Part shown: positions 5,924 through 64,000 of the stretch, piece by piece
Layout: each line of letters starts with the position of its first letter
Position numbering within the stretch: position 1 is the first letter of the stretch
Source of the DNA: Hymenobacter gelipurpurascens
Lineage (GTDB): Bacteria; Bacteroidota; Bacteroidia; Cytophagales; Hymenobacteraceae
Length of the DNA stretch: 64,000 nucleotides
Direction of reading: 5' to 3'
Assembly (NCBI RefSeq): GCF_900187375.1
Contig: NZ_FYEW01000002.1
Location: forward strand, 434,001 to 498,000
Translations under genes and position numbers: made by a program
Notes under the pieces: generated by a model
Database searches by the model: none
Told to the model about the DNA's origin: nothing
The model's input: only the letters and a program-made list of their open reading frames with translations

Positions 5924-5924
5924 A

Positions 5925-49991: not shown

Positions 49992-50414
49992 TTAGCAGTA
50001 CTCTTCGAAAGCGCCCTGCAAGTTATTAGCAATGCGCATCAGGTCATTGCCTTCAATGTGGTAGCGCTCAATCATGTGCACCAGCTCACCGTCTTTGAAC
50101 AGGGCGATGCAGGGGCTGCTAGGCGGATAGGGCAGCAAATGCTCGCGCACCTTTGCTACGGCTTCCGTTTCCATGCCGGCAAATACCGTCACGAGCTTAT
50201 TGGGCTTTTTGTCGGAGCTGGAAACGGCCATTTTAAGGGCTGGGCGGGCTTTGCCAGCGGCGCAGCCACACACCGAGTTCACGGCTACCAGTACGGTGCC
50301 GCTCTGCTCATTGAGCACGGCATCTACTTCTTCGGGGGTCATCAGTTGCTCGAAACCGGCCTCTACGAGGTCTTGGCGAATCGGCGCTACCATGTATTCT
50401 GGGTACGTGGCCAT
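49992..50414 (-). CDS. Bacilliredoxin (BrxA/BrxB, YphP/YqiW family)
   Basis: A 140-residue thioredoxin-fold protein. The family CGC motif is present (Cys49-Gly-Cys51 in NSVCGCAAGKARP), followed by LPYPPSSPCIALFKDGELVHMIERYHIEG, which contains the conserved cis-Pro region. Bacilliredoxins reduce mixed disulfides of bacillithiol on proteins; some Bacteroidota make bacillithiol. A TAnnTTTG element lies 61 bases upstream. Confidence 0.93.
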   Translation of the reverse strand: MATYPEYMVAPIRQDLVEAGFEQLMTPEEVDAVLNEQSGTVLVAVNSVCGCAAGKARPALKMAVSSSDKKPNKLVTVFAGMETEAVAKVREHLLPYPPSSPCIALFKDGELVHMIERYHIEGNDLMRIANNLQGAFEEYC

Positions 50415-50474
50415 AGGAGAAAGCTAGGCTTTGAATGAAAAACGAGGGCTAGATAGCTAGGCCTGTCGGAAGTG

Positions 50475-50482
50475 CAAAATTA
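50475..50482 (-). promoter_or_regulatory. Bacteroidota -7 element of the bacilliredoxin gene
   Basis: Exact TAATTTTG on the minus strand. No TTG at the expected -33 spacing. Confidence 0.45.
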
Positions 50483-50708
50483 CGCAAATCCTGCTGCCCA
50501 ACCATCAGTCAGCCCATCAACCTTAAGTTGCGGCCGGAAGTTTGCGGTTGGCCTCTTTTTTCAAGCGAAGCATTACGCTCAGACCTAATTGGTTTGCCTT
50601 TCGACTGGCCTAGATACCTGATTTTCTGCCAATAGCGAATGGCCAGCAACCATTAACTTTCGTAAAAATGGTGTAGCTGGCAGCCTCTTACTCTTTAGTT
50701 TTTATTCC

Positions 50709-51002
50709 ATGACCTATTCTGAGTTTCTTGCTTCCCAGACCCAGCCACAAGCTCCGGCCGGACTTTCGCCGCTATTGGAGGCGCTGTGGTATGCCGGCCG
50801 CGACGAGTGGCACCACGCCCACGCCATTGCGCAGGACAATGACCACGACCCGCTACATAATTGGCTGCACGCGTTTCTGCATCGCCAGGAAGGTGATGCC
50901 GGCAATGCCGCGTATTGGTATCGGCGGGCGGGCCAGCCGGTGCACACGGGTGGCCTACGCGAGGAATGGCAGGCCATGGTCAGGTCTCAGTTTGCAGGCT
51001 AA
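50709..51002 (+). CDS. Small conserved hypothetical protein
   Basis: A 97-residue soluble, helical protein with no signal peptide. It is rich in His and Trp: GRDEWHHAHAIAQDNDHDPLHNWLHAFLHRQEGD, then NAAYWYRRAGQPVHTGGLREEW. The helix pairs look like one and a half TPR-like units. I have seen such stand-alone proteins in this phylum but cannot give a function. The His pairs could bind metal. A near-consensus TAACTTTC precedes it at about 50653. Confidence 0.75.
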   Translation: MTYSEFLASQTQPQAPAGLSPLLEALWYAGRDEWHHAHAIAQDNDHDPLHNWLHAFLHRQEGDAGNAAYWYRRAGQPVHTGGLREEWQAMVRSQFAG

Positions 51003-51147
51003 GCCTTGAGGAAGCAACTCAGCAGCTTGCAGTAGGCCTATTCCAAATTAGTATAATCCAACTATATAATAATTAATAGATTAATCAGTCGGGTATCGCT
51101 CAATTAAAATTATATTTAAACCGCGTCAATGAAACTGGCGTGTTATC

Positions 51148-52212
51148 ATGTATAAAACCTTACTATTGGCTACGGCCCTGGGCCTTACTGCCGCATCTGC
51201 CCAGGCACAGGTTGATACTGTCCGGGCCTCTACATTGCCGCCGGCTCAGTTGGCGGAGAAGCTGTACAATAGCGGGGTGGCGAAGTACAACCAAAAAAGC
51301 TACCGAGCTGCCATTCTGGACTTTGATAAAGCCTTGGCGGCAAAGCCTGATTTTGCCAAAGCCTATTACAACCGGGCCACCACCCGCTACGAGCTGAAAG
51401 ACTATCAGCCAGCCGTGCAGGACTACGACCAGGCCATCAAGCTCGACCCCGCCACCTTCGGGCCATATTTTGGGCGGGCGCAGGCTAAAGAGGCGCTAGG
51501 CCAGTCGGCGGAGGCAGAGCAGGACTATGGTAAAGCGGCCGAGCTGAAGACCGATTATGCGCCTTCGTGGTACTACCGCGGAGCACTGCGCTTCGAAAAG
51601 GGAGATTATCAGGCGGCTAAAACAGATTTCGATCAGGCCATTAAGGCCGACCCGGCTTATGCGTATGCCTGGCACGACCGCGCCAGTGCTCAGCGCCAGC
51701 TCAATAATCTGCCGGCCGCTATTCAGGATTACACCAAAGCCCTGAGCCTACAGCCGGAATTGCTGCCCGCGCTCCTAAACCGCGCCGCCACGAAGCGCCG
51801 CGCCGGCGACCTAAAAGGCGCCCTACAGGACTACAGCGACTATCTGAGCAAAAAGCAGGACAACGCCCTGGCCTACACCAACCGCGGCAGCACCCGTTTC
51901 GAGCAGGGAGATTATAAAGGTGCCGTAGAGGATTTCTCGAAGGCAGTTGCCCTGAAAGCGGATTACGCTTTTGCCTGGAACAACCGGGCCGCGGCGTACC
52001 TCAAGTTAGAAGACTATGCCAAAGCGGAAGCCGATGCCTCCAAAGCTATTGGCCTGAATGCGCAGTATGCTGAGGCTTATCTCAACCGGGGCCACGCCCG
52101 CGAAATGCTGCGCCACCCAGACCAGGCTTGCCAGGACTGGCGCAAAGCCGCCGAGCTAGGCCTGGAAGTAGGCACCACTTACGCGGCCAACTCGGGCTGC
52201 GGCGCCGAATAG
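51148..52212 (+). CDS. Exported TPR-repeat protein
   Basis: A 354-residue protein with a signal peptide (MYKTLLLATALGLTAASAQAQ) and about eight tetratricopeptide repeats filling the rest. The repeats show the YxxAixDFdkAi...aYyNRgxxr pattern, for example YNQKSYRAAILDFDKALAAKPDFAKAYYNRA. The C-terminal unit ends HPDQACQDWRKAAELG. It is presumably periplasmic and used for protein-protein contact. It is 79 bp upstream of the PorE-like gene on the same strand with no terminator between, so the two may work together. Confidence 0.88.
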   Translation: MYKTLLLATALGLTAASAQAQVDTVRASTLPPAQLAEKLYNSGVAKYNQKSYRAAILDFDKALAAKPDFAKAYYNRATTRYELKDYQPAVQDYDQAIKLDPATFGPYFGRAQAKEALGQSAEAEQDYGKAAELKTDYAPSWYYRGALRFEKGDYQAAKTDFDQAIKADPAYAYAWHDRASAQRQLNNLPAAIQDYTKALSLQPELLPALLNRAATKRRAGDLKGALQDYSDYLSKKQDNALAYTNRGSTRFEQGDYKGAVEDFSKAVALKADYAFAWNNRAAAYLKLEDYAKAEADASKAIGLNAQYAEAYLNRGHAREMLRHPDQACQDWRKAAELGLEVGTTYAANSGCGAE

Positions 52213-52291
52213 CCGACAGGCACAGCATACGTCTCTGGGCCCGCTCTTCCCCGAGCTGGCCCGGTAGCATCAACTTCAGATTGACCGGTAC

Positions 52292-54328
52292 ATGTATAAA
52301 TACCTACTCGCTTTTCTACTCCTGGCTTCTGCTACGCAGGCCCAGAATGTTGAGTTCAGCAAAGACCGATTTGGCAACGACAAGGACGGACTGAAAGCCG
52401 CTCTTAAGGAAATAAAGGCTGGTGATGAGTGGTACGAGATGGACCCACCGCGCTATGAGCAGGCGCTAGGCCACTACCTCGCGGCGCAGAAGTTCAACCC
52501 CAATAATGCCGAGCTCAACCTGCGCATCGGCGACAGCTACCTGCACTCCGGCTTTAAGCCACGCGCGCTGGAGTATTTGCAGAAGGCCTACCAACTCAAC
52601 CCCGATGTAGACCCGCGCATTCATTACCTGTTGGGCCGTGGCCTACACCTGAATGCCAAGTGGACCGAGGCCATTGCGGAATACAAGCGCGCTACTCCGG
52701 CCAGCGGCTCCAAAAACACGGCAGCTTTCACCACTGATATTCAAAAGAAAATAAGGGAGTGTGAAAACGGCAAGAAACTGGCGGCTAAGCCCAGCCGCGT
52801 GTTTATTGATAACGCCGGACCTGGGGTAAACTCGCCTTATCCCGATTACGGCCCGGTTATTACGGCCGATGAATCGGTGATTCTGTTTACCTCGCGGCGC
52901 GACAACTCTACCGGTGGCCAGCATGACCCCGAAACGGGTGGCTTCTTCGAGGACATCTACCAGAGCAGCCGCAACAGCCAAGGCGAGTGGTCGGCGGCGC
53001 GCAACCTCGGCGACCCAGTGAATACCGATGGCCACGACGCCACCGTGGGCCTCGCTCCGGATGGGCAGCGCATGCTGGTGTACATGGAAGACAACGGCGG
53101 CGACCTGCACGAGGCCGACTTGCGTGGCGTGCAATGGCGCAAACCGCAGAAACTGGGTTCCCGCATCAACAGCCGCTCCCACGAGTCGTCGGCGGCCTAC
53201 ACGCCCGATGGGCGCAGTCTGTACTTCGTCACGGACAAGGAAGGTGGCCTAGGCTCGCGCGACATCTATAAAATTGAGATTGATGGCCGTGGGCAAGCCG
53301 TAAACCTGGGCTCCACCATCAACACCCAGTACGGCGAGGAAGGCGTTTTTCTGCATCCCGATGGCAAAACGATGTACTTCTCCTCGGAGGGCCATAACTC
53401 GATGGGCGGCTACGATATCTTTAAATCGGTATACGAAAACGGCAAATGGAGTGCCCCCGAAAACCTGGGGTGGCCTATCAATACGCCCGATGATGACGTG
53501 TTCTTCGTGATTTCGGCTTCGGGCCGGCATGGCTATTATTCCTCGTTTCGGGATGATGGCCTAGGCTCCAAGGATATCTACCAGATTACTTTCCTGGGAG
53601 CGGAGAAACAGCCTTTATTAAGCCAGGAAGACCAGTTATTGGCATCGCGGGTGCAGCCCGTGAAGGAGACGCTGTTGGCGCCGCCGGTAGCCATTGCTTC
53701 CGCCCAGGTAACCATTCTGAAAGGCACCGTAACGGACGATAAAACCAAGGAGCCGCTGGAGGCCACCATTGATGTAATTGATAACTCCCGCAATCAGGTA
53801 ATTGCCTCCTTCCGGGCCAATGCACAGTCGGGCCGCTATCTGGTGTCGTTGCCTTCCGGTATCAACTACGGCATTGTGGTGCGGCAGGAAGGCTACTTGT
53901 TCCACTCCGAAAACTTTGACCTACCAGCCGGCGCTGCCTACTCCGAGGTAGTGAAAGACATTGCGTTGAAGAAGCTGGATGTGGGCGTGAAAGTGGTGTT
54001 GAACAACATTTTCTTCGATTTCGATAAGGCTACTCTGCGCAAGGAAAGCACCAGTGAGCTAGAGCGCCTGCAGAAACTCCTGACGGAAACTCCGGCTCTG
54101 CGCCTGGAGATTTCGGGCCACACTGATAACGTCGGTAACGCTGCCTACAACAAAGACCTGAGCCAGCGGCGAGCCAAAGCGGTAGTGGATTATCTGGTGC
54201 AAAATGGCATCAGTAAAGACCGCCTGACTTTTGCGGGCTACGGCGACACGCAGCCTGTCGCACCAAATACTACCAAAGCCGGACGGCAGCTTAACCGTCG
54301 CACCGAGTTCAAAGTGACCGGCAAATAG
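52292..54328 (+). CDS. OmpA-family protein with TPR, PD40 propeller and CRD (PorE-like)
   Basis: A 678-residue envelope protein with a signal peptide (MYKYLLAFLLLASATQAQ). TPR-like helices (about 30-150) come first, then a beta-propeller of PD40 repeats (about 165-430; YTPDGRSLYFVTDKEGGLGSRDIYKIEIDGRG, HPDGKTMYFSSEGHNSMGGYDIF). A carboxypeptidase-regulatory-like domain (about 465-550) follows, and an OmpA peptidoglycan-binding domain (about 565-678, FFDFDKATLRKES, ISGHTDNVGN, RAKAVVDYLV, GYGDTQP). This domain order is that of PorE, a peptidoglycan-associated part of the type IX secretion system. Similar OmpA proteins are numerous in Bacteroidota, so the PorE identity is probable rather than certain. 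Confidence 0.88.
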   Translation: MYKYLLAFLLLASATQAQNVEFSKDRFGNDKDGLKAALKEIKAGDEWYEMDPPRYEQALGHYLAAQKFNPNNAELNLRIGDSYLHSGFKPRALEYLQKAYQLNPDVDPRIHYLLGRGLHLNAKWTEAIAEYKRATPASGSKNTAAFTTDIQKKIRECENGKKLAAKPSRVFIDNAGPGVNSPYPDYGPVITADESVILFTSRRDNSTGGQHDPETGGFFEDIYQSSRNSQGEWSAARNLGDPVNTDGHDATVGLAPDGQRMLVYMEDNGGDLHEADLRGVQWRKPQKLGSRINSRSHESSAAYTPDGRSLYFVTDKEGGLGSRDIYKIEIDGRGQAVNLGSTINTQYGEEGVFLHPDGKTMYFSSEGHNSMGGYDIFKSVYENGKWSAPENLGWPINTPDDDVFFVISASGRHGYYSSFRDDGLGSKDIYQITFLGAEKQPLLSQEDQLLASRVQPVKETLLAPPVAIASAQVTILKGTVTDDKTKEPLEATIDVIDNSRNQVIASFRANAQSGRYLVSLPSGINYGIVVRQEGYLFHSENFDLPAGAAYSEVVKDIALKKLDVGVKVVLNNIFFDFDKATLRKESTSELERLQKLLTETPALRLEISGHTDNVGNAAYNKDLSQRRAKAVVDYLVQNGISKDRLTFAGYGDTQPVAPNTTKAGRQLNRRTEFKVTGK

Positions 54329-54349
54329 GCCTAGGGAAGATTTAGCACT

Positions 54350-54403
54350 GCACAAGAGGCGGCCGCACAAGGAAAACGATTCCTGTGCGGCCGCCTCTTG
54401 TGC
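54350..54403 (+). terminator. Terminator of the PorE-like gene
   Basis: Twenty-base perfect arms 54350-54369 and 54384-54403, plus a short inner stem after a one-base bulge, followed by TTTTT. Confidence 0.9.
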
Positions 54404-54555
54404 GTTTTTACATACCTCAGAAAGCCACTTTTCATTGGTTGAACATATAGCAGGATATTTATAGCAATTTCAATAATATAGTATTTAACATACAATATTT
54501 TGTTTTACATTCGCCTATTCATTCTCCCCTCATAAACAAAATCCTGTTGCTGCTC

Positions 54556-54936
54556 ATGAAAAAGCTCTCTGTTGCTCTGGTTACGATGGTTGTCTTAGGC
54601 TGCACGCACACTGCGCTAGCCCAGCAAAGCCCTGCCACGCTAAAAAGCCAAGCAATGGAAGCTACCCAAAAGCTTGCCGCCCGCATTTCGCTGGATGATG
54701 CGCGTACCATGCAAGTGCGCCGCCTGACGTTGGAACGCCTAACGCAGGAAAGTGACTTGCAGCAGCTGTACGCCAACGACCCCAGCATGCTCCAAAACAA
54801 GGCGCGCGTGCTGGAACAGGAATACAGCGAAAAGCTTAAGTCTGTCCTTACAGATTCGCAGTATCAGCGCTACTTAGCCCAGCTGGCTGTGGCTCCCGAA
54901 AACCAGGCTCTGGTATCAGGAAACACTCGTCCCTAA
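54556..54936 (+). CDS. Small periplasmic helical protein
   Basis: A 126-residue protein from the ATG at 54556 with signal MKKLSVALVTMVVLGCTHTALAQ; the LGC could also be a lipobox. The mature part is all-helical and charged, with KLAARISLDDARTMQVRRLTLERLTQES and a closing YSEKLKSVLTDSQYQRYLAQL. That last block resembles the end of Spy/CpxP-like periplasmic chaperones and DUF4890-type proteins (LTDxQyxxY). Function unknown. Confidence 0.75.
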   Translation: MKKLSVALVTMVVLGCTHTALAQQSPATLKSQAMEATQKLAARISLDDARTMQVRRLTLERLTQESDLQQLYANDPSMLQNKARVLEQEYSEKLKSVLTDSQYQRYLAQLAVAPENQALVSGNTRP

Positions 54937-54940
54937 GCAC

Positions 54941-55035
54941 CGGCAAACCGCCCTAAACGCCCAGAGGACCTGGCCTAGAAACTGCACGCAAGCGGTTCTA
55001 GGCCAGGTCCTCTGGGCGTTTAGGGCGGTTTGCTG
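54941..55035. terminator. Longest perfect hairpin in the window (38-bp arms), stop to stop
   Basis: Arms 54943-54980 and 54996-55033 are perfect over 38 bases around a 15-nt loop, and pairing continues to 54941/55035 through a wobble. It starts 5 bases after the plus-strand stop (54936) and ends at the minus-strand stop codon (55036). The inner part of the arms contains GGCCTAG. No T run is visible. Confidence 0.85.
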
Positions 55036-56577
55036 TTAGCCTACATGGTTGCGCTGAGCCTGTTCGGCGGCTTGCTGCTCCGCTTCCAGCTTGCGCAGAA
55101 TGCCCAAAGCAAACTGCCACAGATTTTCGTAGGGAATGATCTCAATCTCGCCGTAGGCCTCTCCTGGCTGCGGTGCCACTTTCAGGCGCTCCAGCAAGGG
55201 CATAGCCTTTTGCTCGCAGGTACCCGAAACAAAGTTTTCTTTTACCGTGAGCAGCAGCATCCGGAAGAACAATTGGCTGCGCAAGGTTGCGGGGTTGCGC
55301 AAATGCCGCTGCTCGTATTTGCGCAAACCCTCCAGGCGCGCCAGGAGACCCTCAATATCTCGGCGCTGCAGAAAATACAGAAACTGAAGAATCAGGATGG
55401 CGACGTTGTAGCCCTGTTTGTCGCGGCTGTAGTCTGGTACGGTTTGCACCAATTGGGCAAAGTGGCGCATTTTCACCGGCGACTGTTCCGGCTGCATCAG
55501 CTGCAGATAGGCCTCATATAACTCCCAGCGCTGCTGAGCCGCAGGGCGCTGCTTGCGGTAATAGGGGTTGCGGCGCGCCTGCTGCAGCAAGTCGTAGGCC
55601 TGTCCATACTGCGCGGCGTGCATAGCCAGCAGCAGATAAATCTCCAGGTAATAGAACCAGTTGCCGGAAGAGTAATGAAAATCCTTGAAGTATTCTTCGG
55701 CTAGTTGCAGACCTTTTTGGGCGCGGCGGCACTGCAGGTGTGCATACACGCTCATGTAGTTATTGAAACGCTTATCGAAACGCTTTTCGTTGATTTTTCC
55801 AGCTTTACGGGCCTTTTCGGTGGCCGTCGTGAGCCGGATAATCTCTTCGTAGTTACCCGTTAGCTCTTCCCTGGACATTTTGGTCACGTACAGGAAGTAA
55901 AATGTATTGTAGCTCTTGGCCTTTTTGTGCAGCTCCTCCAGCCGCTCCAGATAGCTGGGCAATTGCTTTAGAATAAACTGGCGCCACCGCACTTTGTGCT
56001 GAGAGAATACTTTTATCTCGTAGTACAGCTGTTCGGCCTCGTCTTCCAGAGCCAGTAGCTTCTGCCATTCGTCCAGCTGCTTGTTCATCACCTTGAACCG
56101 CGCCGGATTTCGCATTTCGGCATACAGAATGCGTAGGGTTCGGGCACACATTACGGCATATTGCGTCAGCTCGGCCTCAGTAGCCACCGTCAGCGCTTTT
56201 CTATAGAGCTTCTCCGCCAGCTTATATTCCGCTTCGCCGCTTAGAATTTTGGCCTGATGCAACAGGCCTAGGCAGTGCTGCTCATGGCGCCGGGATACCA
56301 CATGGCGCTCATCCGTGTGATCAAGGAAGTATAAGTGGTTCAGTAACTTCTGCTGTACCCTGGATTTTAGCTTTCGAAAAGTGGTTTGGCTTTTCGCTTC
56401 TGTGCTACCATATAAGGTTTTGACTATCTTGTTCTGCGTAATGTTTGGGTCACCCTCCAACAGACGCACCAACTGCAGGTCCTTGCTGGTCGCATTGCGG
56501 TCAGAAAAATCCAGAAATGGTAACACCGCCAGTCGGCGATCTGTCACAATTTTCACCAATGTAGTCAGTTCATCCAT
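55036..56577 (-). CDS. Large helical-repeat protein of unknown function
   Basis: A 513-residue soluble protein, no signal peptide. Residues 1-90 contain LVRLLEGDPNITQNKIVKTLYGS followed by TTFRKLKSRVQQKLLNHLYFL, an arrangement like a small DNA- or RNA-binding helix-turn-helix unit. Residues 95-490 are regularly spaced amphipathic helices with TPR-like features (AEYKLAEKLYRKALTVATEAEL, YGQAYDLLQQARRNPYYRKQ). I do not recognise the family. It is divergently transcribed from the tandem-repeat peptide gene across a 369-base spacer, which allows but does not prove a regulatory link. Confidence 0.78.
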   Translation of the reverse strand: MDELTTLVKIVTDRRLAVLPFLDFSDRNATSKDLQLVRLLEGDPNITQNKIVKTLYGSTEAKSQTTFRKLKSRVQQKLLNHLYFLDHTDERHVVSRRHEQHCLGLLHQAKILSGEAEYKLAEKLYRKALTVATEAELTQYAVMCARTLRILYAEMRNPARFKVMNKQLDEWQKLLALEDEAEQLYYEIKVFSQHKVRWRQFILKQLPSYLERLEELHKKAKSYNTFYFLYVTKMSREELTGNYEEIIRLTTATEKARKAGKINEKRFDKRFNNYMSVYAHLQCRRAQKGLQLAEEYFKDFHYSSGNWFYYLEIYLLLAMHAAQYGQAYDLLQQARRNPYYRKQRPAAQQRWELYEAYLQLMQPEQSPVKMRHFAQLVQTVPDYSRDKQGYNVAILILQFLYFLQRRDIEGLLARLEGLRKYEQRHLRNPATLRSQLFFRMLLLTVKENFVSGTCEQKAMPLLERLKVAPQPGEAYGEIEIIPYENLWQFALGILRKLEAEQQAAEQAQRNHVG

Positions 56578-56946
56578 CTAATAATGGCCTTTTTGAGGTA
56601 TTTAAGCCCATTATACTAATATCTGCCGACTTAATATCTATGTCACAAAAACGAGACGAATATCCTTTACCTCTTCTTTCTCATGGCCCATCTTTGTAAA
56701 CGATAAATTATAATTATTTAGGTTCTATTATGTCACAATATTGCTATAAAACGACCTGTATTTCCTCCGCTCTCGAGCGCATAAATGGCATTTTCTGCTA
56801 TTAGATGACATTTCATCCAAAGAGTTTCCTGGGAAACAGGGCGCTTTTTCACGTCACGTTTACCCGGTTTCTTTCCTTTACGCCGGCTGGTTTGGTCCCC
56901 ACATTTGTGTCAGTCAATCACTTGAACCACAAATATTTCCCATACC
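56578..56946. other. AT-rich divergent spacer between helical-repeat and tandem-repeat genes
   Basis: About 370 bases, clearly more AT-rich than the surrounding genes, so probably a control region for both. A near-consensus CATCTTTG occurs at about 56691. No small gene or strong inverted repeat is evident. Confidence 0.5.
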
Positions 56947-57333
56947 ATGTTAAACTTCATCGCCATTGCTCTGCTGCAAGTTTCCAGCCTGACTATTTCT
57001 GTTGCTACTATTGAAACCGCTATTGAGAAGCAGGCACCCAAGCAGGCCCTATCTACTGCCGACCACGGCACGAGCGGCTGGGGTGATGGTTACCTGGCGG
57101 CCGCAGACCACGGCACCAGCGGTTGGGGCGACGGTTACTTAACGGCAGTTGTAGAGCATGGCACGAGTGGTTGGGGTGATGGCTACCTGGCAGCCACAGA
57201 CCACGGCACCAGCGGCTGGGGTGATGGATATTTGGCAGCCGCAGACCACGGTACGAGTGGTTGGGGCGATGGGTATTTGGCAGCCGCAGAGCATGGCACG
57301 AGCGGCTGGGGCGATGGATATTTGACGGCCTAA
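56947..57333 (+). CDS. Small secreted protein of six tandem 15-residue repeats
   Basis: A 128-residue protein with no family I recognise. Residues 1-20 (MLNFIAIALLQVSSLTISVA) look like a signal peptide or hydrophobic leader, and residues 21-38 form a short charged linker. From residue 39 to the end there are six copies of a 15-residue unit (the second has 16). Each has the invariant core HGTSGWGDGYL, preceded by D or E and followed by A/T and small residues. The repeats end exactly at the stop. At DNA level the copies differ at many silent positions, so the peptide, not the DNA, is conserved. Possible readings are a multi-copy peptide precursor, a RiPP-like substrate or a repetitive surface protein. 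No modifying enzyme or sorting domain is seen. Confidence 0.8.
   Translation: MLNFIAIALLQVSSLTISVATIETAIEKQAPKQALSTADHGTSGWGDGYLAAADHGTSGWGDGYLTAVVEHGTSGWGDGYLAATDHGTSGWGDGYLAAADHGTSGWGDGYLAAAEHGTSGWGDGYLTA
57061..57333 (+). repeat. Six tandem 45-bp coding repeats (one of 48 bp)
   Basis: Units at 57061-57105, 57106-57153, 57154-57198, 57199-57243, 57244-57288 and 57289-57333 (the last includes the stop codon). They are in frame and each encodes (D/E)HGTSGWGDGYL plus small residues. Third-position differences such as GGT/GGC/GGA and TAC/TAT separate the copies. Confidence 0.95.
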
Positions 57334-57442
57334 TATGATCCTCTGGCAGCCGTATGAAAGCGCCACTTTTATTCCAACTCAACTATCTAGTATCAAAACG
57401 TGGTAACTTGCCTGGTAGCAATGCCTGTGCAGTTGTCCGTTC

Positions 57443-59158
57443 ATGAATCGAATCCAATCTGGTCTTTTTTTACTACTGTGGAGCGCTTTAGCTGCTTGCT
57501 CCGCATCGGTATCATCGGCTCCGGATGCCGTGCGCATCCGGTGGGCCCGAGATCCGGAAAACTTAGACCCTCTTATTGTTAAAACTTCCGGCTCGCTTGA
57601 GATCAACAATCTGCTGCATTGCAGTTTGTTGCGAGCCGATGAGCAGAAGGGCGACTTTACGCCTTGGCTGGCAGAAGCACTTCCAGGCGTAACGCGCATC
57701 GGCGACTCGCTTATGCTGGTTTCCTACCGCATTCGGCCAGAGGCTACCTGGGACAATGGCGCCCCTGTGCTGGCCCGCGACGTGGCCTTCACCCTGAAAA
57801 CGATGCATTGCGCGGGCTTGCCGACCGAAATGGCGCAGGCTCGCTTTGGCTTTGTGCTCGATCTGCGGCCCGATTCCACTGATCCGCGCCGTTTTTCCCT
57901 GCTGTGTCGCGGCCAGTCCATCGATTTTGTGCGCAGCTCCGGCGACTTCAGTATTCTGCCCGAATACGTACTGGACCCCCAGGCCACTTTGCGGGGCTTG
58001 GCCGTAGCCGATATGGGCAAAAATTTGCCCGTAGTTCAGCAATTTGCGCAGCGCTACCTGGCCGCGCAGCTGGCCCGACACCCCGAGCGCGTGCCTGGTT
58101 GTAGCGCGTACCAGCTACAAAGCTGGCAACCGGGCCGGCAGCTTACGCTTGTGCGCAAACCCAATTGGTGGGCTGATAAACTGCTTACGCCACCACCCGC
58201 TCTGCGCGCTTTCCCGCGTCGCATCAACTTCCAGATAATTCCTGATGCTGCTACCGCCGTACTGGCGTTGCGTCGCGGTGATATCGACTTGTATAGCTTG
58301 ATGCCGGCGCCGGAATTTGCCCGTCTGCAACAGTCACCAACAGATCGTGAGCAGCTGCGCTTTTCCACCGCCGACTCTTACGAGTGCCTTACGGCAAACT
58401 TCAACACCCGCAAGCCCCAGCTGCAAGACCGCTTAACCCGGCAGGCACTTACTTATTTGTTTGATGTCTCGGCCCTCATTAAAGCTACGCAGCTAGGCCA
58501 GGCAACACCAAGCATAGGCCTCATCAGTCCGCGCATCAAGCGCTATTACAACGACAGCCTCCCTCCCCTGACCTATAGCCCAGCACAGGCCACCCGATTG
58601 CTCAAGCAAGCTGGCTGGCAACAGTCGGAGCAAGGCTGGACCCGGGCTTCTGGAGGCAGCACGCAGCAACTGCGCCTGAGTATCAGTTACCGCGCCGGAG
58701 AGCCCGCTTTCGAAACCACTGCTTTGCAATTTCGGTCGGCCGCTGCTTTGTTGGGTATTCCTATTGAGCTGCGCCCAACGGAAGCTTCGCTGCTCAGTCG
58801 GCAGCTCTTGCAGGGCGAAACCGAAATCAGCCTGCGCAATATGAATGGCCAGCCGTTTGCCTACGACTTCACACCCATTCTGCACTCGGGCAGCACCAAG
58901 CTGTACAACACCACGGGGTTTGGCACTCCTGCCAGCGACCATCTGATTGAGGCCATTGCTCAGGAAAACAACCTGACCAAGAAAGCCAAGCTGCTGCGGC
59001 AGTTTCAGCGGGTGCTGTATGTGGAGAGGCCATTGGCCGTGCTGTATTTCCTGCAATACCGCATTGCAGCGGCCCGCCGGCTGGGTACTGTTCCCGTATC
59101 GGGGCTTATGCCGGGGTATATTGTTACGGATATTCGACCTACTCCTGTCAAGCCCTGA
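57443..59158 (+). CDS. Oligopeptide ABC transporter substrate-binding lipoprotein
   Basis: A 571-residue SBP_bac_5 family protein with a lipoprotein signal (lipobox LAAC, Cys about 19). Family features are VRIRWARDPENLDPLIVKTSG at the start, YRIRPEATWDNGAPVLARDVAFTLKTM (about 94-120), and WWADKL and RRINFQIIPDAATAVLALRRGDIDLYSLMP in the middle. The family binds oligopeptides, nickel or sugars outside the inner membrane; peptides are likeliest with OppB/OppC-type permeases downstream. It starts 110 bases after the tandem-repeat gene on the same strand and shares a base with the next gene (TGATG). Confidence 0.88.
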   Translation: MNRIQSGLFLLLWSALAACSASVSSAPDAVRIRWARDPENLDPLIVKTSGSLEINNLLHCSLLRADEQKGDFTPWLAEALPGVTRIGDSLMLVSYRIRPEATWDNGAPVLARDVAFTLKTMHCAGLPTEMAQARFGFVLDLRPDSTDPRRFSLLCRGQSIDFVRSSGDFSILPEYVLDPQATLRGLAVADMGKNLPVVQQFAQRYLAAQLARHPERVPGCSAYQLQSWQPGRQLTLVRKPNWWADKLLTPPPALRAFPRRINFQIIPDAATAVLALRRGDIDLYSLMPAPEFARLQQSPTDREQLRFSTADSYECLTANFNTRKPQLQDRLTRQALTYLFDVSALIKATQLGQATPSIGLISPRIKRYYNDSLPPLTYSPAQATRLLKQAGWQQSEQGWTRASGGSTQQLRLSISYRAGEPAFETTALQFRSAAALLGIPIELRPTEASLLSRQLLQGETEISLRNMNGQPFAYDFTPILHSGSTKLYNTTGFGTPASDHLIEAIAQENNLTKKAKLLRQFQRVLYVERPLAVLYFLQYRIAAARRLGTVPVSGLMPGYIVTDIRPTPVKP

Positions 59159-60222
59159 TGCAGTGGAGCCGATACCTCCTGCTACGGCTGGCGCTCGTGG
59201 GGCTGGCGGCCTGGGCCATTCTGTCCTGCATCTTCTTACTATCCCGCCTGACCTCCCAGGACGATGTGGTTCGTGCAGCCTTCGACGGAAGCACCTTTAG
59301 CCCCACTATCTCAGCCACCGAGAAGGCGCAGGCAGAAAACCGGCTTCGGCAACGCTATGGCCTGGATGTGCCGCTGTTCTACTTTTCCATTTCGCCTGCC
59401 CACGGCCAGATTCCACCGGCTTGGCAATGGCATGGCACTCCCAATCAGTACCACCGCTGGCTGACCAACCTGCTTCGGGGAGATTTGGGCACGTCCTACC
59501 GCGAAGACGCACCCGTGACTGGCCTACTGGCCGCTGCCCTGCAGTATACCCTGCCTCTTACTGCGCTGGCCGCATTTTTTTCGCTTCTTATCACGTTGGA
59601 ATTAAGCATTTGGTTGGGCTATCATCCGCGTTGGCGACAGCCGGTTTTGGCCTTTCTGCACGCGATACAGTCGTTGCCGCTGTTCGTTATTGCGCTAGGC
59701 CTGCTTCTGTTGCTGGCCAACCCCGATGTGCTGGCGTGGTTTCCGGCCTACGGGCTGGGTAATGATGAGGCGGCCAGCCCGTGGGCACATGACCTAGGCC
59801 AGTACCTGTATCACGTGGCGCTGCCTCTGTTCAGTTTGGTGCTGGTGAGTATTCCGGGCCTGATTATCCAGCTGGATGCTTCTATTCAGCAGGAGTTGCC
59901 GTCCCTGTATGTGGCCACCGCTCGGGCCAAGGGCGCACCTCCTCGGGTCGTCATCAGAAAGCATATTGTGCGCAATGCCCTGCTGCCAGTGTTGCCGTTG
60001 CTTACGGAGCTCCTCCCCAATATGGTGGCCGGCTCGGTAGTGGTAGAGATGATTTATGCGCTGCCCGGTATGGGGCGCCTGTTGGCAGAAGCCGCCTCTA
60101 CCCAGGATTTTCCCGTGCTGCTGGGCGCCGTGCTGCTGGTTGCGCTGGTCCGCCTACTTAGCCAATTGCTTACCGATTTGCTGTACCAATGGGCCGATCC
60201 ACGCATTCGGCTTTCCGTATGA
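59158..60222 (+). CDS. ABC transporter permease (OppB/DppB-like)
   Basis: A 354-residue inner-membrane protein with six predicted helices. The N-terminal helix is followed by a periplasmic loop with LRQRYGLDVPLFYFS and LLRGDLGTSYREDAPV, typical of OppB. The EAA loop for contact with the ATPase reads ATARAKGAPPRVVIRKHIVRNALLPVLP (about 256-283). The end ALVRLLSQLLTDLLYQWADPRIRL is the family C-terminus. Its start overlaps the stop of the binding-protein gene, and its end overlaps the next permease by ATGA. Confidence 0.92.
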   Translation: MQWSRYLLLRLALVGLAAWAILSCIFLLSRLTSQDDVVRAAFDGSTFSPTISATEKAQAENRLRQRYGLDVPLFYFSISPAHGQIPPAWQWHGTPNQYHRWLTNLLRGDLGTSYREDAPVTGLLAAALQYTLPLTALAAFFSLLITLELSIWLGYHPRWRQPVLAFLHAIQSLPLFVIALGLLLLLANPDVLAWFPAYGLGNDEAASPWAHDLGQYLYHVALPLFSLVLVSIPGLIIQLDASIQQELPSLYVATARAKGAPPRVVIRKHIVRNALLPVLPLLTELLPNMVAGSVVVEMIYALPGMGRLLAEAASTQDFPVLLGAVLLVALVRLLSQLLTDLLYQWADPRIRLSV

Positions 60223-61211
60223 GCTGGAAGCGCTCCGTTGGTTTTTTCCTTGCAGTATGCTGGCTGCTTCTGGTGCTCCTGGCTGCCTTTTTGGCTCCTA
60301 CTACCCTTCCCTCACCCAATTTGCTGCAAACCACCACTCCGCCATTCCAGGCAGAACACTGGCTCGGCACCGATCCGGTAGGCTACGATGTACTGACGAG
60401 CCTGCTTAGTGGTGCCCGTTCGGCCATCTTTATTAGTCTGCCGGCTGCTTTGTGCGCTAACCTACTAGGTGGCCTACTAGGCGTTTTGGCAGGTTTTTTC
60501 GGAAACACTCGCATCCGGATACTCCGGGGCTGGGTAGTAGCCGCGCTTCTATCGGTGGTAGCGGCCGGAAGTTTTGTAGGCCACTTCTGGGCTTCCCCTG
60601 GCTTAGGGGTAGCGGCACTTTTGCTCCTGGGGGCTTTGCTGGGCCGCCTGCTAGGCCACTTGCGGTGGGGCCAAAAACCTGTATTCTTTCCCTTAGATGA
60701 CGTGGTGCAGGCGCTTATTGGCCTACTAGACTCTGTGCCGCTGCTGGTCCTGGTCCTGACGGTAGCAGCTATTCAGCGGCCCTCCCCTCTTGGGTTGGTG
60801 GTTCTGCTCACGGCTACCTGCTGGACTACGCCCGCCCGCGTGCTTCGTGCCGCCACCCTGCGCGTAGTGCCACTGCCTTTCATAGCGGCGGCCGAGGCAA
60901 TTGGGCTTCCTCCGCTCCGCATTGTGCGCAGGCATGTGTGGCCCATGGTTTGGCCGGTGCTGCTGGTCCGGATTCCCCTTAGCATTGCCCTTATTATCGG
61001 CTTGGAAACCACCCTGTCTTTCCTCGGTATAGGCATGCCGCCTGAAACTCCCAGCTGGGGGCGGCTGCTTGCTTCTTCGCGGCTGGCTCCTACGGCCTGG
61101 TGGCTGGTTGTATGCCCCGGAACCACTCTATTCCTCACTATATGGAGTTTGCAACGGCTGGCTCAGGAAAATAAAGTGCGGAGTATGACTAGAGATAATG
61201 TCACAAAATGA
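60219..61211 (+). CDS. ABC transporter permease (OppC/DppC-like)
   Basis: A 330-residue inner-membrane protein from the ATG at 60219, which overlaps the previous stop in ATGA. Features of OppC are FQAEHWLGTDPVGYDVLTSLLSGARSAIFISL near the N-terminus, the EAA loop AAAEAIGLPPLRIVRRHVWPMVWPVLLV, and the end ETTLSFLGIGMPPETPSWGRLLASS. A stretch at about 100-170 is an extra hydrophobic region. No OppD/OppF ATPase gene follows, so the importer needs an ATPase encoded elsewhere. Confidence 0.92.
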   Translation: MSWKRSVGFFLAVCWLLLVLLAAFLAPTTLPSPNLLQTTTPPFQAEHWLGTDPVGYDVLTSLLSGARSAIFISLPAALCANLLGGLLGVLAGFFGNTRIRILRGWVVAALLSVVAAGSFVGHFWASPGLGVAALLLLGALLGRLLGHLRWGQKPVFFPLDDVVQALIGLLDSVPLLVLVLTVAAIQRPSPLGLVVLLTATCWTTPARVLRAATLRVVPLPFIAAAEAIGLPPLRIVRRHVWPMVWPVLLVRIPLSIALIIGLETTLSFLGIGMPPETPSWGRLLASSRLAPTAWWLVVCPGTTLFLTIWSLQRLAQENKVRSMTRDNVTK

Positions 61212-61485
61212 GCACTTTTTTCACAGGCAACTTAGTAGCAAACGCTTCCCCAGCCGGCAACTCTTCTCTCTAGATTCCTGATTAAAAGCGGATGAAACTG
61301 AACAGAAGAATTTAAGTCAGTTTTAAGCTTCAATTATTTTATACAGTATATCGGATTAATACAAGTCACAATTTAGAGCAAAGTGTCCTTTACAACGCCT
61401 TATTAGGGTGCTAATATTGATATGTGGAACGGCACATAGGAGAAGAGAACCCGTTTTAAACAGCTGCTTGTCAGGTGCGTTGAGT

Positions 61486-61707
61486 ATGGCTTCCCTTTTT
61501 TTACAGCGTCGTCGAACGCAGGCTTTTCGAGCTTTAATGCTAGAAGTAGCCTTTCATCAAACAGTTGCGGTAGCAGAAAGCTACACGACTATAGATGGAG
61601 AAGTCGTATCGTATGTGGCTGGTGAAGCTGCCATCCGCAACGGAACGGCGGTGCTAATTGGTGGACTGCTCGTCGGAGCGGTTCTGTCGCAAGACGTAAT
61701 AGATTAA
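61486..61707 (+). CDS. Doubtful small ORF, possible small protein
   Basis: A 73-residue frame from the ATG at 61486 (MASLFLQRRRTQAF...). An amphipathic beginning is followed by a glycine-rich hydrophobic end (NGTAVLIGGLLVGAVLSQ). No homology-like motif or promoter element supports it apart from its place between the transporter and a terminator-like hairpin. It could be a small membrane or bacteriocin-like peptide, or chance. Confidence 0.35.
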   Translation: MASLFLQRRRTQAFRALMLEVAFHQTVAVAESYTTIDGEVVSYVAGEAAIRNGTAVLIGGLLVGAVLSQDVID

Positions 61708-61790
61708 CATAGAAATTTTGATTCGGTGCCCCTGCAGCTGCTCGTGGTGCGGCCCGAATCTACAGGTTGTTGCAATAGGTGTGTGAAAAT

Positions 61791-61818
61791 CCCGTGGGCA
61801 TTGTCTACGGGTTTTTTT
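61791..61818 (+). terminator. Terminator-like hairpin
   Basis: A seven-base stem (61791-61797/61805-61811, one wobble) followed by seven T, before the convergent reductase gene. Confidence 0.6.
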
Positions 61819-61859
61819 ATGCTTTTATGCGGGCGTCTACCTCAACCCTCAGCAGTAGC

Positions 61860-62768
61860 CTAGGCCACTCCTTCCGTCTGCTGGGCCAGCAACGCAATTC
61901 CTTCCGAAAAAGAATGGGGACTGTAGGCCAGTTCCTCTTCGGCTTTGCTGATGATAAAGCCAGTGCGGGCCGGCCGTTTAGCTGGCTGCGTGAAGGTGCT
62001 GGCATCTACCTTCTCAATCAGGCCGCTATCCAACCCAAAGTAATCGGCCACCTGCAGGGCCATCTGGTAGGGCGTCAGCAGTTCGCGGCCACTGATGTGG
62101 TAGATGCCGGTGGCGTGCTTTTGGGCGGCCAGCCAGCACCCTTGGGCAAGATCCTCGGCCAGGGTTGGCGTCCGAAGCTGGTCATCTACCACTTTGATAG
62201 GCCTACCGGCGCGGAGCGAGTCGCGCACCCAGAGCACAATGTTGGTACGGCCGTAGTCGTGGGCAGTGCCATATACTAGCACCGTGCGCAGAATGGCCCA
62301 GGGCACACGGCAGGCCTGCACGGCTTTCTCAGCGGCCAGCTTGCTTTCCCCGTAAAAGTTAATGGGCCCTGGCAAGGCATCTTCGGCCAGAGGGCCGTGC
62401 TCGCCACTAAAGATAAAATCGGTGCTGAGGTGGAGCAGATGAACGGCATTCTGCTCGCAGGCTTCCACCAGATATTCTGTAGCCGTCACGTTCTGCTGCG
62501 AGCAAGCCTCCTGGTTAAGTTGGCACTCGTCCACGTTGGTCATGGCGGCGGTATGGATGAGGTGCGTAGGCCGCTGCTGTGCCACTACCTGCTGCACGTG
62601 GGCGCGGTCTGTCACATCCAGGGGCACAAACTGCACCTCTGGATAGAGCGCCGCCAGCTTGTTTTCGCCGCGCGACGTGGCTACCAGCTGCACGCCGGGC
62701 TCCTTGCGCAGTAGTGCCACCAGCTTTTGGCCCAGCAGCCCGTTGGAGCCAGTCAGAAGGATTTTCAT
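61860..62768 (-). CDS. RmlD-like sugar-nucleotide reductase (extended SDR)
   Basis: A 302-residue short-chain dehydrogenase/reductase. The NAD(P) motif GSNGLLGQKL (about 7-16) opens a Rossmann fold. Then come HTAAMTNVDECQ (about 72-83), HLSTDFIFSGEHGPLAEDALPGPINFYGESKLAAE with catalytic Tyr-x3-Lys (YGESK), and the family block GIYHISGRELLTPYQMA. It matches dTDP-4-dehydrorhamnose reductase (RmlD) and its SDR relatives. The other rml genes are not nearby, so the exact substrate is open. Confidence 0.86.
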   Translation of the reverse strand: MKILLTGSNGLLGQKLVALLRKEPGVQLVATSRGENKLAALYPEVQFVPLDVTDRAHVQQVVAQQRPTHLIHTAAMTNVDECQLNQEACSQQNVTATEYLVEACEQNAVHLLHLSTDFIFSGEHGPLAEDALPGPINFYGESKLAAEKAVQACRVPWAILRTVLVYGTAHDYGRTNIVLWVRDSLRAGRPIKVVDDQLRTPTLAEDLAQGCWLAAQKHATGIYHISGRELLTPYQMALQVADYFGLDSGLIEKVDASTFTQPAKRPARTGFIISKAEEELAYSPHSFSEGIALLAQQTEGVA

Positions 62769-62786
62769 GGAGTGTAGGCCTATCGG

Positions 62787-63428
62787 TTATGGATACTGGT
62801 AGCCATATAGCTCCGTGATTTTCTTTTTCTTCAGCTTCTCCACTTTCACCGTCATCCTGATGTCGGTAGTCGGTCGGTTGCGGTCAGCTACGGGCTGTTG
62901 AGCAATTTTATCCACTACCTCCAAGCCACTGATTACCTGCCCGAACACAGTATAGGCGCCGTTTAGGTGCGGAGTGCCGTTGTGGTTTTGCACAATGTAG
63001 AACTGGGAGGCGCTACTGGCTCGCTCGGGATTCACCATGTCGCCGCTGCGGGCGGCGGCTAGGGCTCCGTACTTGTGGAGTAGCTCGGGCCGAATTTCGG
63101 CCGGAATCATCTTTTGATCGGGCGAGCCGGCGCCATCGTTGTTCGGGTCCGCATCTTTGGAGTTGGCATCGCCGCCCTGAATCATGAAGTTGGGGATGAT
63201 GCGGTGAAACGTAGTGCTGTTATAAAAGCCACTTTCCGCCAGCTTCAGAAAATTGGCCTTGTGCCGGGGCGTTTGGTCAAACAGGATCAGACGGATATCA
63301 CCTTGGGGTGTACTGATGGTAACGAGCTGATCTTTTTTGCTTTTCCGAGGGCCTTTGGCGGCTTGTAGGCCAGGGGCGAAAAGCAGCAAAGCCCACACCA
63401 CCAGCGTGAGGCGAGATAATACCTTCAT
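62787..63428 (-). CDS. Exported cyclophilin-type peptidylprolyl isomerase
   Basis: A 213-residue protein with a signal peptide (MKVLSRLTLVVWALLLFAPGLQA). The cyclophilin domain covers about 33-205: TPQGDIRLILFDQTPRHKANFLKLAESGFYNSTTFHRIIPNFMIQGGD, with the catalytic Arg in FHR, then ASSASQFYIVQNHNGTPHLNGAYTVFGQVISGLEVVDKI. It speeds proline isomerisation in periplasmic protein folding. It lies just before the reductase gene on the same strand, 18 bases apart. Confidence 0.94.
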   Translation of the reverse strand: MKVLSRLTLVVWALLLFAPGLQAAKGPRKSKKDQLVTISTPQGDIRLILFDQTPRHKANFLKLAESGFYNSTTFHRIIPNFMIQGGDANSKDADPNNDGAGSPDQKMIPAEIRPELLHKYGALAAARSGDMVNPERASSASQFYIVQNHNGTPHLNGAYTVFGQVISGLEVVDKIAQQPVADRNRPTTDIRMTVKVEKLKKKKITELYGYQYP

Positions 63429-63464
63429 GCAAAAACAGGATTGAAAACGGATGTGAAAGCGAAG

Positions 63465-64000
63465 TTACGTGGTTTCGGGGGCTAAGGATAGGTAGTCGGC
63501 GCGCAACAGGGCGTATTGGTCCAGGTCGTGGAGGCGACCATCGGCGCCACGGTAATCCTGGCGGAAGCAGCCTTCGTGTCGGAAACCGGCGCGCTGCACC
63601 AAGCGGGCACTGCGCCGGTTTTCGGGGCGCAGCTGGCAATAAATGCGGGTAAGCCCCACTTCTTTAAAGGCCCACTCCAGCATTTCCTGCAAGGCCTCCT
63701 GCATCAGGCCCTGCCCTTCTACTTCGGCATCGAGCAGGTAGGCCAGCTCCGCTTTCGGGATTTCCCAGGCCACATTGCGCAAACTTACCAGGCCTAGCAA
63801 CTGCTGCGTTTCGGGGTGCCAGAGGCCTAGCTGGAAAGCATGCCGCTGCTGCCACTCGCGCTGCCGCTCCCGAATAAAGCTGGCGGTATCTTCCAGGGTA
63901 CGGTTGGCCGCCAATGTTTTCGGGAAGTTGAGGCGCAGCCGCTCGTGGTTTTTCTGCAGCAGCACATGCAGCGGTAGGGCATCAGGAGCACGCCAGGTGC
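63465..64000 (-). CDS. GNAT acetyltransferase, RimJ/RimL type (5' end beyond the window)
   Basis: The frame is open to the right edge; upstream of the in-frame GTG at 63965 it reads on through HLPLADPARWT in reverse, in keeping with the family N-terminus, so the true start lies outside. Visible features are LLQKNHERLRLNFP, LGLVSLRNVAWEIPKAELAYLLDAEVEGQGLMQEALQEMLEWAF with the acetyl-CoA loop (EGQGLM), and RIYCQLRPENRRSARLVQRAGFRHEG. RimJ/RimL enzymes acetylate ribosomal protein N-termini, but many relatives act on small molecules or other proteins. Confidence 0.87.
   Translation of the reverse strand, partial: TWRAPDALPLHVLLQKNHERLRLNFPKTLAANRTLEDTASFIRERQREWQQRHAFQLGLWHPETQQLLGLVSLRNVAWEIPKAELAYLLDAEVEGQGLMQEALQEMLEWAFKEVGLTRIYCQLRPENRRSARLVQRAGFRHEGCFRQDYRGADGRLHDLDQYALLRADYLSLAPETT

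Follow-up and report, generated by a model that had tools for sequence, protein, structure and literature searches.

A Putative RRNPPA-like Peptide Signaling Module with a Polyprotein Pheromone Precursor in Hymenobacter

The small repeat gene of Hymenobacter gelipurpurascens described here probably belongs to an RRNPPA-like peptide signaling module of Bacteroidota, in which it would encode a pheromone precursor of polyprotein type within an autoregulatory circuit. This interpretation draws on features that were established by computation, namely the repeat, the selection on its core, synteny and co-occurrence with a receptor gene, the persistence of this pairing beyond the genus, the fold similarity of the receptor, co-divergence, and a common cis motif. 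The window, i.e., the whole stretch of DNA that was analyzed, comprises 64,000 nucleotides, and its features are listed in Table 1.

Table 1. Positions and strands of the features discussed, numbered from the first nucleotide of the window.
Feature	Position	Strand	Basis or remark
Proposed receptor or regulator, 513 aa, divergent from the peptide gene	55036..56577	-	Predicted helical N-domain and TPR superhelix like Rap/NprR
GTCAC-N16-TCCTTT-N24-TTTG, distal copy, proposed operator and promoter	56642..56696	+	Intergenic alignment, motif scan
Third conserved intergenic GTCAC	56732..56736	+	Intergenic alignment
GTCAC-N16-TCCTTT-N24-TTTG, proximal copy	56853..56907	+	Ends about 40 bp upstream of the peptide start codon
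128-aa proposed pheromone precursor with hydrophobic leader, linker, and six HGTSGWGDGYL units	56947..57333	+	ATG start
Leader MLNFIAIALLQVSSLTISVA	56947..57006	+	18-row alignment: no variation at L9 and Q11
Six tandem units, the proposed mature peptide cores	57061..57324	+	TRF: period 45, 5.8 copies
Extracellular solute-binding protein family 5 (oligopeptide/nickel type), SBP_bac_5	57443..59158	+	PF00496, E 4.5e-47
ABC permease, OppB/DppB type, BPD_transp_1	59158..60222	+	PF00528, E 3.6e-31; Opp/Nik B models below cut-off
ABC permease, OppC/DppC type, BPD_transp_1	60189..61211	+	PF00528, E 4.3e-17; Opp/Nik C models below cut-off
GTCAC-N16-TCCTTT upstream of the 73-aa gene	61365..61391	+	Motif before the homologous gene in 47/74 genus loci
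Conserved 73-aa protein, proposed co-regulated target	61486..61707	+	Family in 79/120 loci

Data Sets and Searches

Members of the repeat family were searched for at the DNA level over 99 genomes and then with an 18-row alignment against 120 genomes of the genus. The alignment matched 107 of the 120 at E ≤ 1, the weak profile matches in G020, G005, and G047 being confirmed by reading (loci L158, L173, and L174), and five more genomes were found to carry the peptide when the sequence beside the receptor gene was read (G127, G033, G044, G051, and G152). Scripts were used to read 105 of the 107 genus loci, L081 having been left out though it matched at E 5e-23. Since these scripts were anchored on tryptophan, they account in part for the constancy of this residue over the 129 members.

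The distant set consisted of 60 receptor stretches (40, of which four were from the genus and one was useless, and 20 from the class level) together with 12 loci of the wider family. A peptide gene was recognized in this set by the following rule: a divergent ATG open reading frame of 38-130 aa, located 60-520 bp upstream, whose product begins with a hydrophobic segment lacking K, R, and P and is hydrophilic from there on.

The Repeat Gene and Its Leader

The core HGTSGWGDGYL occurs at residues 40, 55, 71, 86, 101, and 116 of the 128-aa protein, behind a region that is hydrophobic over about residues 1-20 and a linker spanning roughly residues 21-38, which is the order of leader, 18-residue linker, and array given by a sequence-only reading of the window. 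The same reading had described six near-identical 15-residue units; the six units and their identical core were confirmed, while the spacing is 15 residues with one exception of 16. All 11 core residues are invariant over the six units and the DNA of the units differs only silently. Over the seven codons from W-4 to W+2 the synonymous differences per site (pS) were 0.63 and the non-synonymous differences per site (pN) were 0, in agreement with the earlier proposal that selection acts on the peptide. The ATG start is backed by relatives in which the same leader opens at the same place (three of the 20 relatives read first start with GTG), and the gene is single copy in its own 5.06 Mb genome.

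No match above cut-off was obtained for the repeat protein in Pfam or NCBIfam, and the assertion that no described family has this repeat therefore holds for these two databases at their cut-offs. A Pfam match to Pax7 below cut-off (E 1.9e-4) was discounted as reflecting composition. The Rfam scan of positions 54000-60000 of the window gave no match.

In 121 of 129 members a Q stands somewhere between residues 9 and 13 of the leader, and its residues 2-12 include D or E in 77/129 and K or R in 2/129. Because it is nearly free of K and R and often acidic, export may bypass the ordinary signal-peptide route. By its residues the leader appears unlike a textbook Sec signal peptide, and the former description as a small secreted protein is thus retained for the 128-aa, six-unit reading frame and qualified for the word secreted.

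Distribution and Variation in Hymenobacter

The repeat gene is no orphan. A search for the core with a record of copy number and neighbors had been proposed beforehand; of the 120 Hymenobacter genomes, 112 proved to carry the peptide gene, with between 1 and 20 units per gene and with conserved neighbors. In the wider family (204 genomes) 117 genomes matched at E ≤ 0.1, spread over five of six genera. A search of 5.8 billion predicted proteins, which finds only proteins of similar length with common short exact words, returned three relatives at E ≤ 10; copy number varies, since all three have three units by sequence. One counted Trp was present in 42 of the 129 members and two or more in 87, and the longest array had 20 units (L088). 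Assembly breaks at the repeats probably account for four loci (L105, L119, L128, and L146) whose contigs stop within the peptide gene or shortly behind it.

Units are near-identical within a gene and differ between species (e.g., HGTSGWGDGYL, GGASGWGDGH, HGNGGWTGID, GGTGGWGGDIA, and IGSSGWGND), and the identity of the 7-residue core is 97.6% within genes versus 57.8% between genes (first units). A Gly stands four residues before Trp in 123 of 126 first units; one locus has the odd core GDDKWTGQ (L177). For the 87 genes with at least two units, mean pS was 0.356 and mean pN 0.0076, with pN smaller than pS in 76 genes, equal in 11, and larger in none. The spacers vary (between units, residues W-9 to W-7 share 47.6% identity), unit spacing is uneven in 33 of the 73 genes that have at least three units, and single-unit forms have their core near the C-terminus, e.g., TNIGTSGWDDRN or QGGGGWGGD. 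These three properties fit a peptide that is cut out rather than a regular structural repeat. Another route to several peptide copies is seen at locus L164, where three successive one-unit genes on the minus strand (beginning near 5924, 6184, and 6426 when counted on the reverse complement) have different linkers and all end in GGTGSWDDNN.

The Divergent TPR Protein

The predicted fold of the 513-aa protein is a TPR superhelix of RRNPPA shape, for which phi3T Rap structures were the best structural matches. With Foldseek against the PDB there was no match at E ≤ 0.001 and no RRNPPA receptor among the 50 matches listed; the sequence search against the PDB gave no match and Pfam gave weak TPR models only. 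Since RRNPPA subfamilies diverge strongly, the lack of a sequence match does not amount to exclusion.

The receptor gene and the peptide gene occur in the same 112 of the 120 genus genomes, and neither was found in the other eight (G099, G016, G030, G128, G138, G027, G036, and G004); as neighboring genes can be lost together, this co-occurrence supports a unit and is no proof of function. Of 471 receptor relatives, the best 80, which carry titles, were from Hymenobacter apart from one from Solirubrum and one from a Hymenobacteraceae MAG. A small propeptide gene with a hydrophobic leader lies beside the receptor gene in 79 of 80 titled loci, and in the 79 titled loci with both genes the start codons are 348-385 bp apart. 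In Hymenobacter arizonensis two receptors were found, at L302 and L328, each paired with a different peptide, as would be expected for two private channels. Hymenobacter piscis has a second receptor without a peptide gene (L270).

Pairing of Receptor and Peptide beyond the Genus

Of 291 order-level genomes, 75 contain a receptor relative, 33 of them belonging to the genus; for the class the count is 32 of 395 sampled genomes, four in the genus and 28 further. The peptide rule, whose criteria were set after the first examples had been read, identified a candidate at 32 of 71 receptors outside the genus versus three of 200 other genes in the same loci (Fisher p 1.5e-18), with one of 71 on the receptor strand and six of 355 in shuffled upstream regions; eight of the 32 came from the class-level stretches (20 receptors), which were taken after the first examples. 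Two of the three control matches (L354 and L355) also lie in receptor loci and resemble leaders, and one of the counted rule matches (L223) is probably due to chance. This control replaces an earlier count (13/43 distant receptors versus 16/553 other genes), because several of its 16 control matches look like the reverse strand of a peptide gene. The strict rule failed at 39 of 71 receptors, including paralogs beside GatA-like genes and second members of tandem pairs.

Examples of distant peptides are MVELLIALLLQLG...YGGTGTWDNKD, MGLLVAIYLAVG...RPGDGDSW, and MELIIAILIALG...VVVVTGVGV. Not every one of them has a Trp (the small reading frames at L338, L342, L346, and L349 are without it), and the likeness of the leader across the class, roughly M-x-L-[LI]-I-A-x-L-[LI], was read by eye. 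The pairing with the receptor thus outlasts the sequence conservation of the peptide.

Several further arrangements were noted in these loci. Tandem receptor pairs with one divergent peptide gene before the first were seen at L218, L220, L221, and L244. Receptor paralogs at L213, L215, L230, L245, and L246 lie beside genes that by eye are GatA-like, some also beside a TatA-like gene, and have no recognizable peptide gene. At L223 and L224 the receptor relative is directly followed by an ABC ATPase of about 640 aa that by eye looks like a DppD/DppF-type fusion, possibly another link to peptide import.

The divergence of the unit was compared with that of its neighbors over 88 loci. Unit distance correlated with the distance of the receptor (r = 0.579), the binding protein (0.535), the permease (0.533), and an RmlD-like protein (0.365). 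When RmlD was controlled for, the receptor kept 0.487 (permutation p 0.001), and RmlD controlled for the receptor gave -0.066. The receptor retained 0.270 when the binding protein was controlled for and 0.299 with the permease; with the receptor controlled for, these two retained 0.065 and 0.134, respectively. Because linked genes share their history, we take this co-divergence as support and not as proof.

The Importer Operon, Cis Motifs, and the 73-aa Gene

The ABC genes matched NCBIfam models of oligopeptide, dipeptide, and nickel importers, all below the respective cut-offs. Among the 84 loci analyzed first, most of which spanned about 12 kb, 83 had the gene of about 510 aa as a neighbor and 79 the binding protein; the two permeases were neighbors in 71 and 72. 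Over 120 locus stretches relatives of the binding protein were present in 113 and of the permeases in 111 and 107.

The alignment of 103 intergenic regions contained conserved blocks. In its own genome the full motif is present as two intergenic copies and one elsewhere (G000:C1:843719-843773, L249); no convincing protein gene follows the latter on its own strand, and it is perhaps a chance occurrence or a small RNA. The pattern GTCAC-N15..17-YCCTTT was found in the 420 bp before the peptide gene at 71 of 105 genus loci, and all 89 motif matches before the peptide have a spacer of 16, with none on the other strand and a background of 0.0035 per 420 bp. The full pattern occurs somewhere in 82 of 120 genomes versus seven for the pattern read backwards. 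The TCCTTT/TTTG pair may be a -33/-7 promoter of the Bacteroidota type. A minus-strand sigma-70 match toward the receptor (GTGACA-N18-TATAAT) was dropped and is not claimed as a promoter, because its TATAAT is not conserved.

A recurrent motif site about 4.5 kb downstream led to the 73-aa gene after the permeases, and the motif stands before the family gene in 50 of 79 loci. The 73-aa protein had no match in Pfam or NCBIfam and three relatives in the protein collection.

Proposed Mechanism

Export, processing, import, peptide binding, DNA binding, and the sensing of a population are steps that we infer. The repeat protein would be the polyprotein precursor of a short signal peptide of about 8-12 residues around G-x-[GS]-G-W, which the hydrophobic leader would bring to or across the inner membrane. 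Proteases would cut the variable spacers and release the mature peptide, which would re-enter the cytoplasm via the ABC oligopeptide importer encoded just downstream and there bind the TPR superhelix of the divergent protein of about 510 aa, a putative RRNPPA-like receptor. The receptor, or a regulator under its control, would act through the GTCAC-N16-TCCTTT promoters and tune both the 73-aa gene and the operon of peptide and importer, thereby closing an autoregulatory loop in which the 73-aa protein may be a small output protein under the same regulatory motif. Tandem amplification would raise the peptide dose per precursor.

We judge the chances to be slightly in favor of a wider peptide quorum-sensing superfamily of Bacteroidota, with TPR receptors of RRNPPA shape, many with a divergent precursor, a leader that would be class-wide, and a signal part that would have diverged beyond recognition, and, in Hymenobacter, a polyprotein of up to 20 copies, an importer of its own, a 73-aa output, and one cis motif.

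Alternative Explanations

The multi-copy peptide precursor suggested by the sequence-only reading is well supported, and of the kinds it named the pheromone analogy fits best, given the C-terminal unit in single-unit relatives, the adjoining Rap/NprR-like TPR protein and importer operon, and the unit divergence that tracks the receptor. A leader followed by tandem cores would also suit a multi-core precursor of a secreted antimicrobial or RiPP, with the TPR protein as regulator or immunity factor and the ABC genes for uptake or resistance, and NCBIfam gave a weak match to the thiovarsolin family of multi-core RiPPs (E 0.031, 14.5 bits against a cut-off of 35). We consider this unlikely, as no RiPP enzyme was detected by Pfam in the 12 neighboring ORFs scanned (49995-63965; conserved neighbors at other loci were judged by eye), the ABC genes include a binding protein and are of the importer type, and the peptide gene is near-universal in the genus at one fixed locus, whereas natural-product clusters are typically patchy in distribution. 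Modification, cross-linking, or metal binding of the unit, which had been thought conceivable, is further disfavored in that no more than 45 of 129 members have a His six residues or fewer from the first counted Trp. The same count argues against a metallophore or nutrient scavenger, i.e., a secreted His/Asp/Tyr peptide that binds a metal such as nickel, is taken up by a Nik/Opp-like importer, and is regulated through the TPR protein. The importer does adjoin the peptide gene and the top NCBIfam model of the binding protein is nickel_nikA (E 8.5e-27, far below its cut-off), but the receptor pairing persists at loci without an adjacent importer, and this explanation seems to us highly improbable.

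Long arrays of up to 20 Gly-rich units, homogeneous within a gene, could be those of a structural repeat protein (amyloid, adhesin, or surface fiber) whose units are kept alike by gene conversion and whose neighbors are bystanders. A repetitive surface protein had also been named in the sequence-only reading; we hold it to be quite unlikely, because of the members with one counted Trp (42/129), which keep the same neighbors, the unequal spacing (33/73), the three one-unit genes in a row at L164, and the strict co-occurrence with the 510-aa gene. Rather unlikely, in our view, is a peptide that is a TPR ligand and stays within the cell envelope, serving intracellular or periplasmic self-sensing or signaling membrane status instead of cell-cell communication. 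It would agree with a leader that has no positive charge, is often acidic, and is not a standard Sec signal, and the two-membrane envelope would make re-import of a free peptide harder; against it stand the importer-type operon with a binding protein that adjoins in most genus loci and the species-specific units, as expected for pherotypes.

Comparison with Known Systems and Implications

By analogy, the proposed signaling module resembles the RRNPPA systems of the Bacillota (Rap-Phr, NprR-NprX, PlcR-PapR, Rgg-SHP, ComR-ComS, PrgX, and AimR) in its working principle, kinship by descent being a separate matter. Common to both are a TPR superhelix receptor of similar overall shape, a small leader-bearing precursor gene beside the receptor, a signal region close to the C-terminus in single-unit precursors, a link to an oligopeptide permease, and, in some RRNPPA systems, multi-copy precursors. 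The Hymenobacter system differs by its occurrence in Bacteroidota, the lack of detectable sequence similarity, a receptor of about 510 aa, the fixed divergent arrangement, a leader nearly without basic residues, and the presence of importer genes and the 73-aa gene at the same locus. Fungal alpha-factor-type pheromone precursors likewise have a leader followed by like peptide units with variable spacers; their receptor is a surface GPCR, whereas the one proposed here is a soluble TPR protein. The precursors of thiovarsolin and other multi-core RiPPs also combine a leader with repeated cores and differ in that no RiPP enzyme was found among the Hymenobacter neighbors scanned.

Two sources describe RRNPPA pheromones as cleavage products of a secreted propeptide that an oligopeptide permease carries back into the cell, where the receptor binds them (PMC11343458; PMC9765709). 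The tandem Phr propeptides of the phages phi3T and phi105, from which several pheromone copies are proteolysed (PMC11343458, available text), are alike in this respect; their duplication is inside Bacillus Rap systems, whereas Hymenobacter amplifies a longer Gly-Trp core in most of the genus. The available part of PMC9765709 describes seven RRNPPA profiles applied to 13,513 complete bacterial genomes, with systems reported in genera of Firmicutes and propeptides holding the mature peptide at most six times, compared with up to 20 copies in Hymenobacter. On that part of the source, the Hymenobacter proteins are either not RRNPPA or beyond those profiles. For the detector of PMC10075063 genomes of Firmicutes and viruses were used, and PMC12700828 speaks of Bacillota for such systems, both as far as the available text goes. 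A literature search for RRNPP/RRNPPA in Bacteroidetes or Bacteroidota, with most subscription papers outside its scope, found no such system. The proposed superfamily, if real, would to our knowledge be the first case in Gram-negative bacteria of such peptide signaling through an intracellular receptor.

Such precursors seem to be missed by gene callers, as is suggested by the three relatives returned from the predicted proteins under the length and word limits of that search. The unit peptides can be synthesized for testing. If the proposed reading is true, peptide communication via cytoplasmic TPR receptors, so far described for the Gram-positive Bacillota, would extend to a Gram-negative phylum, and the passage of such peptides through two membranes would call for an explanation.
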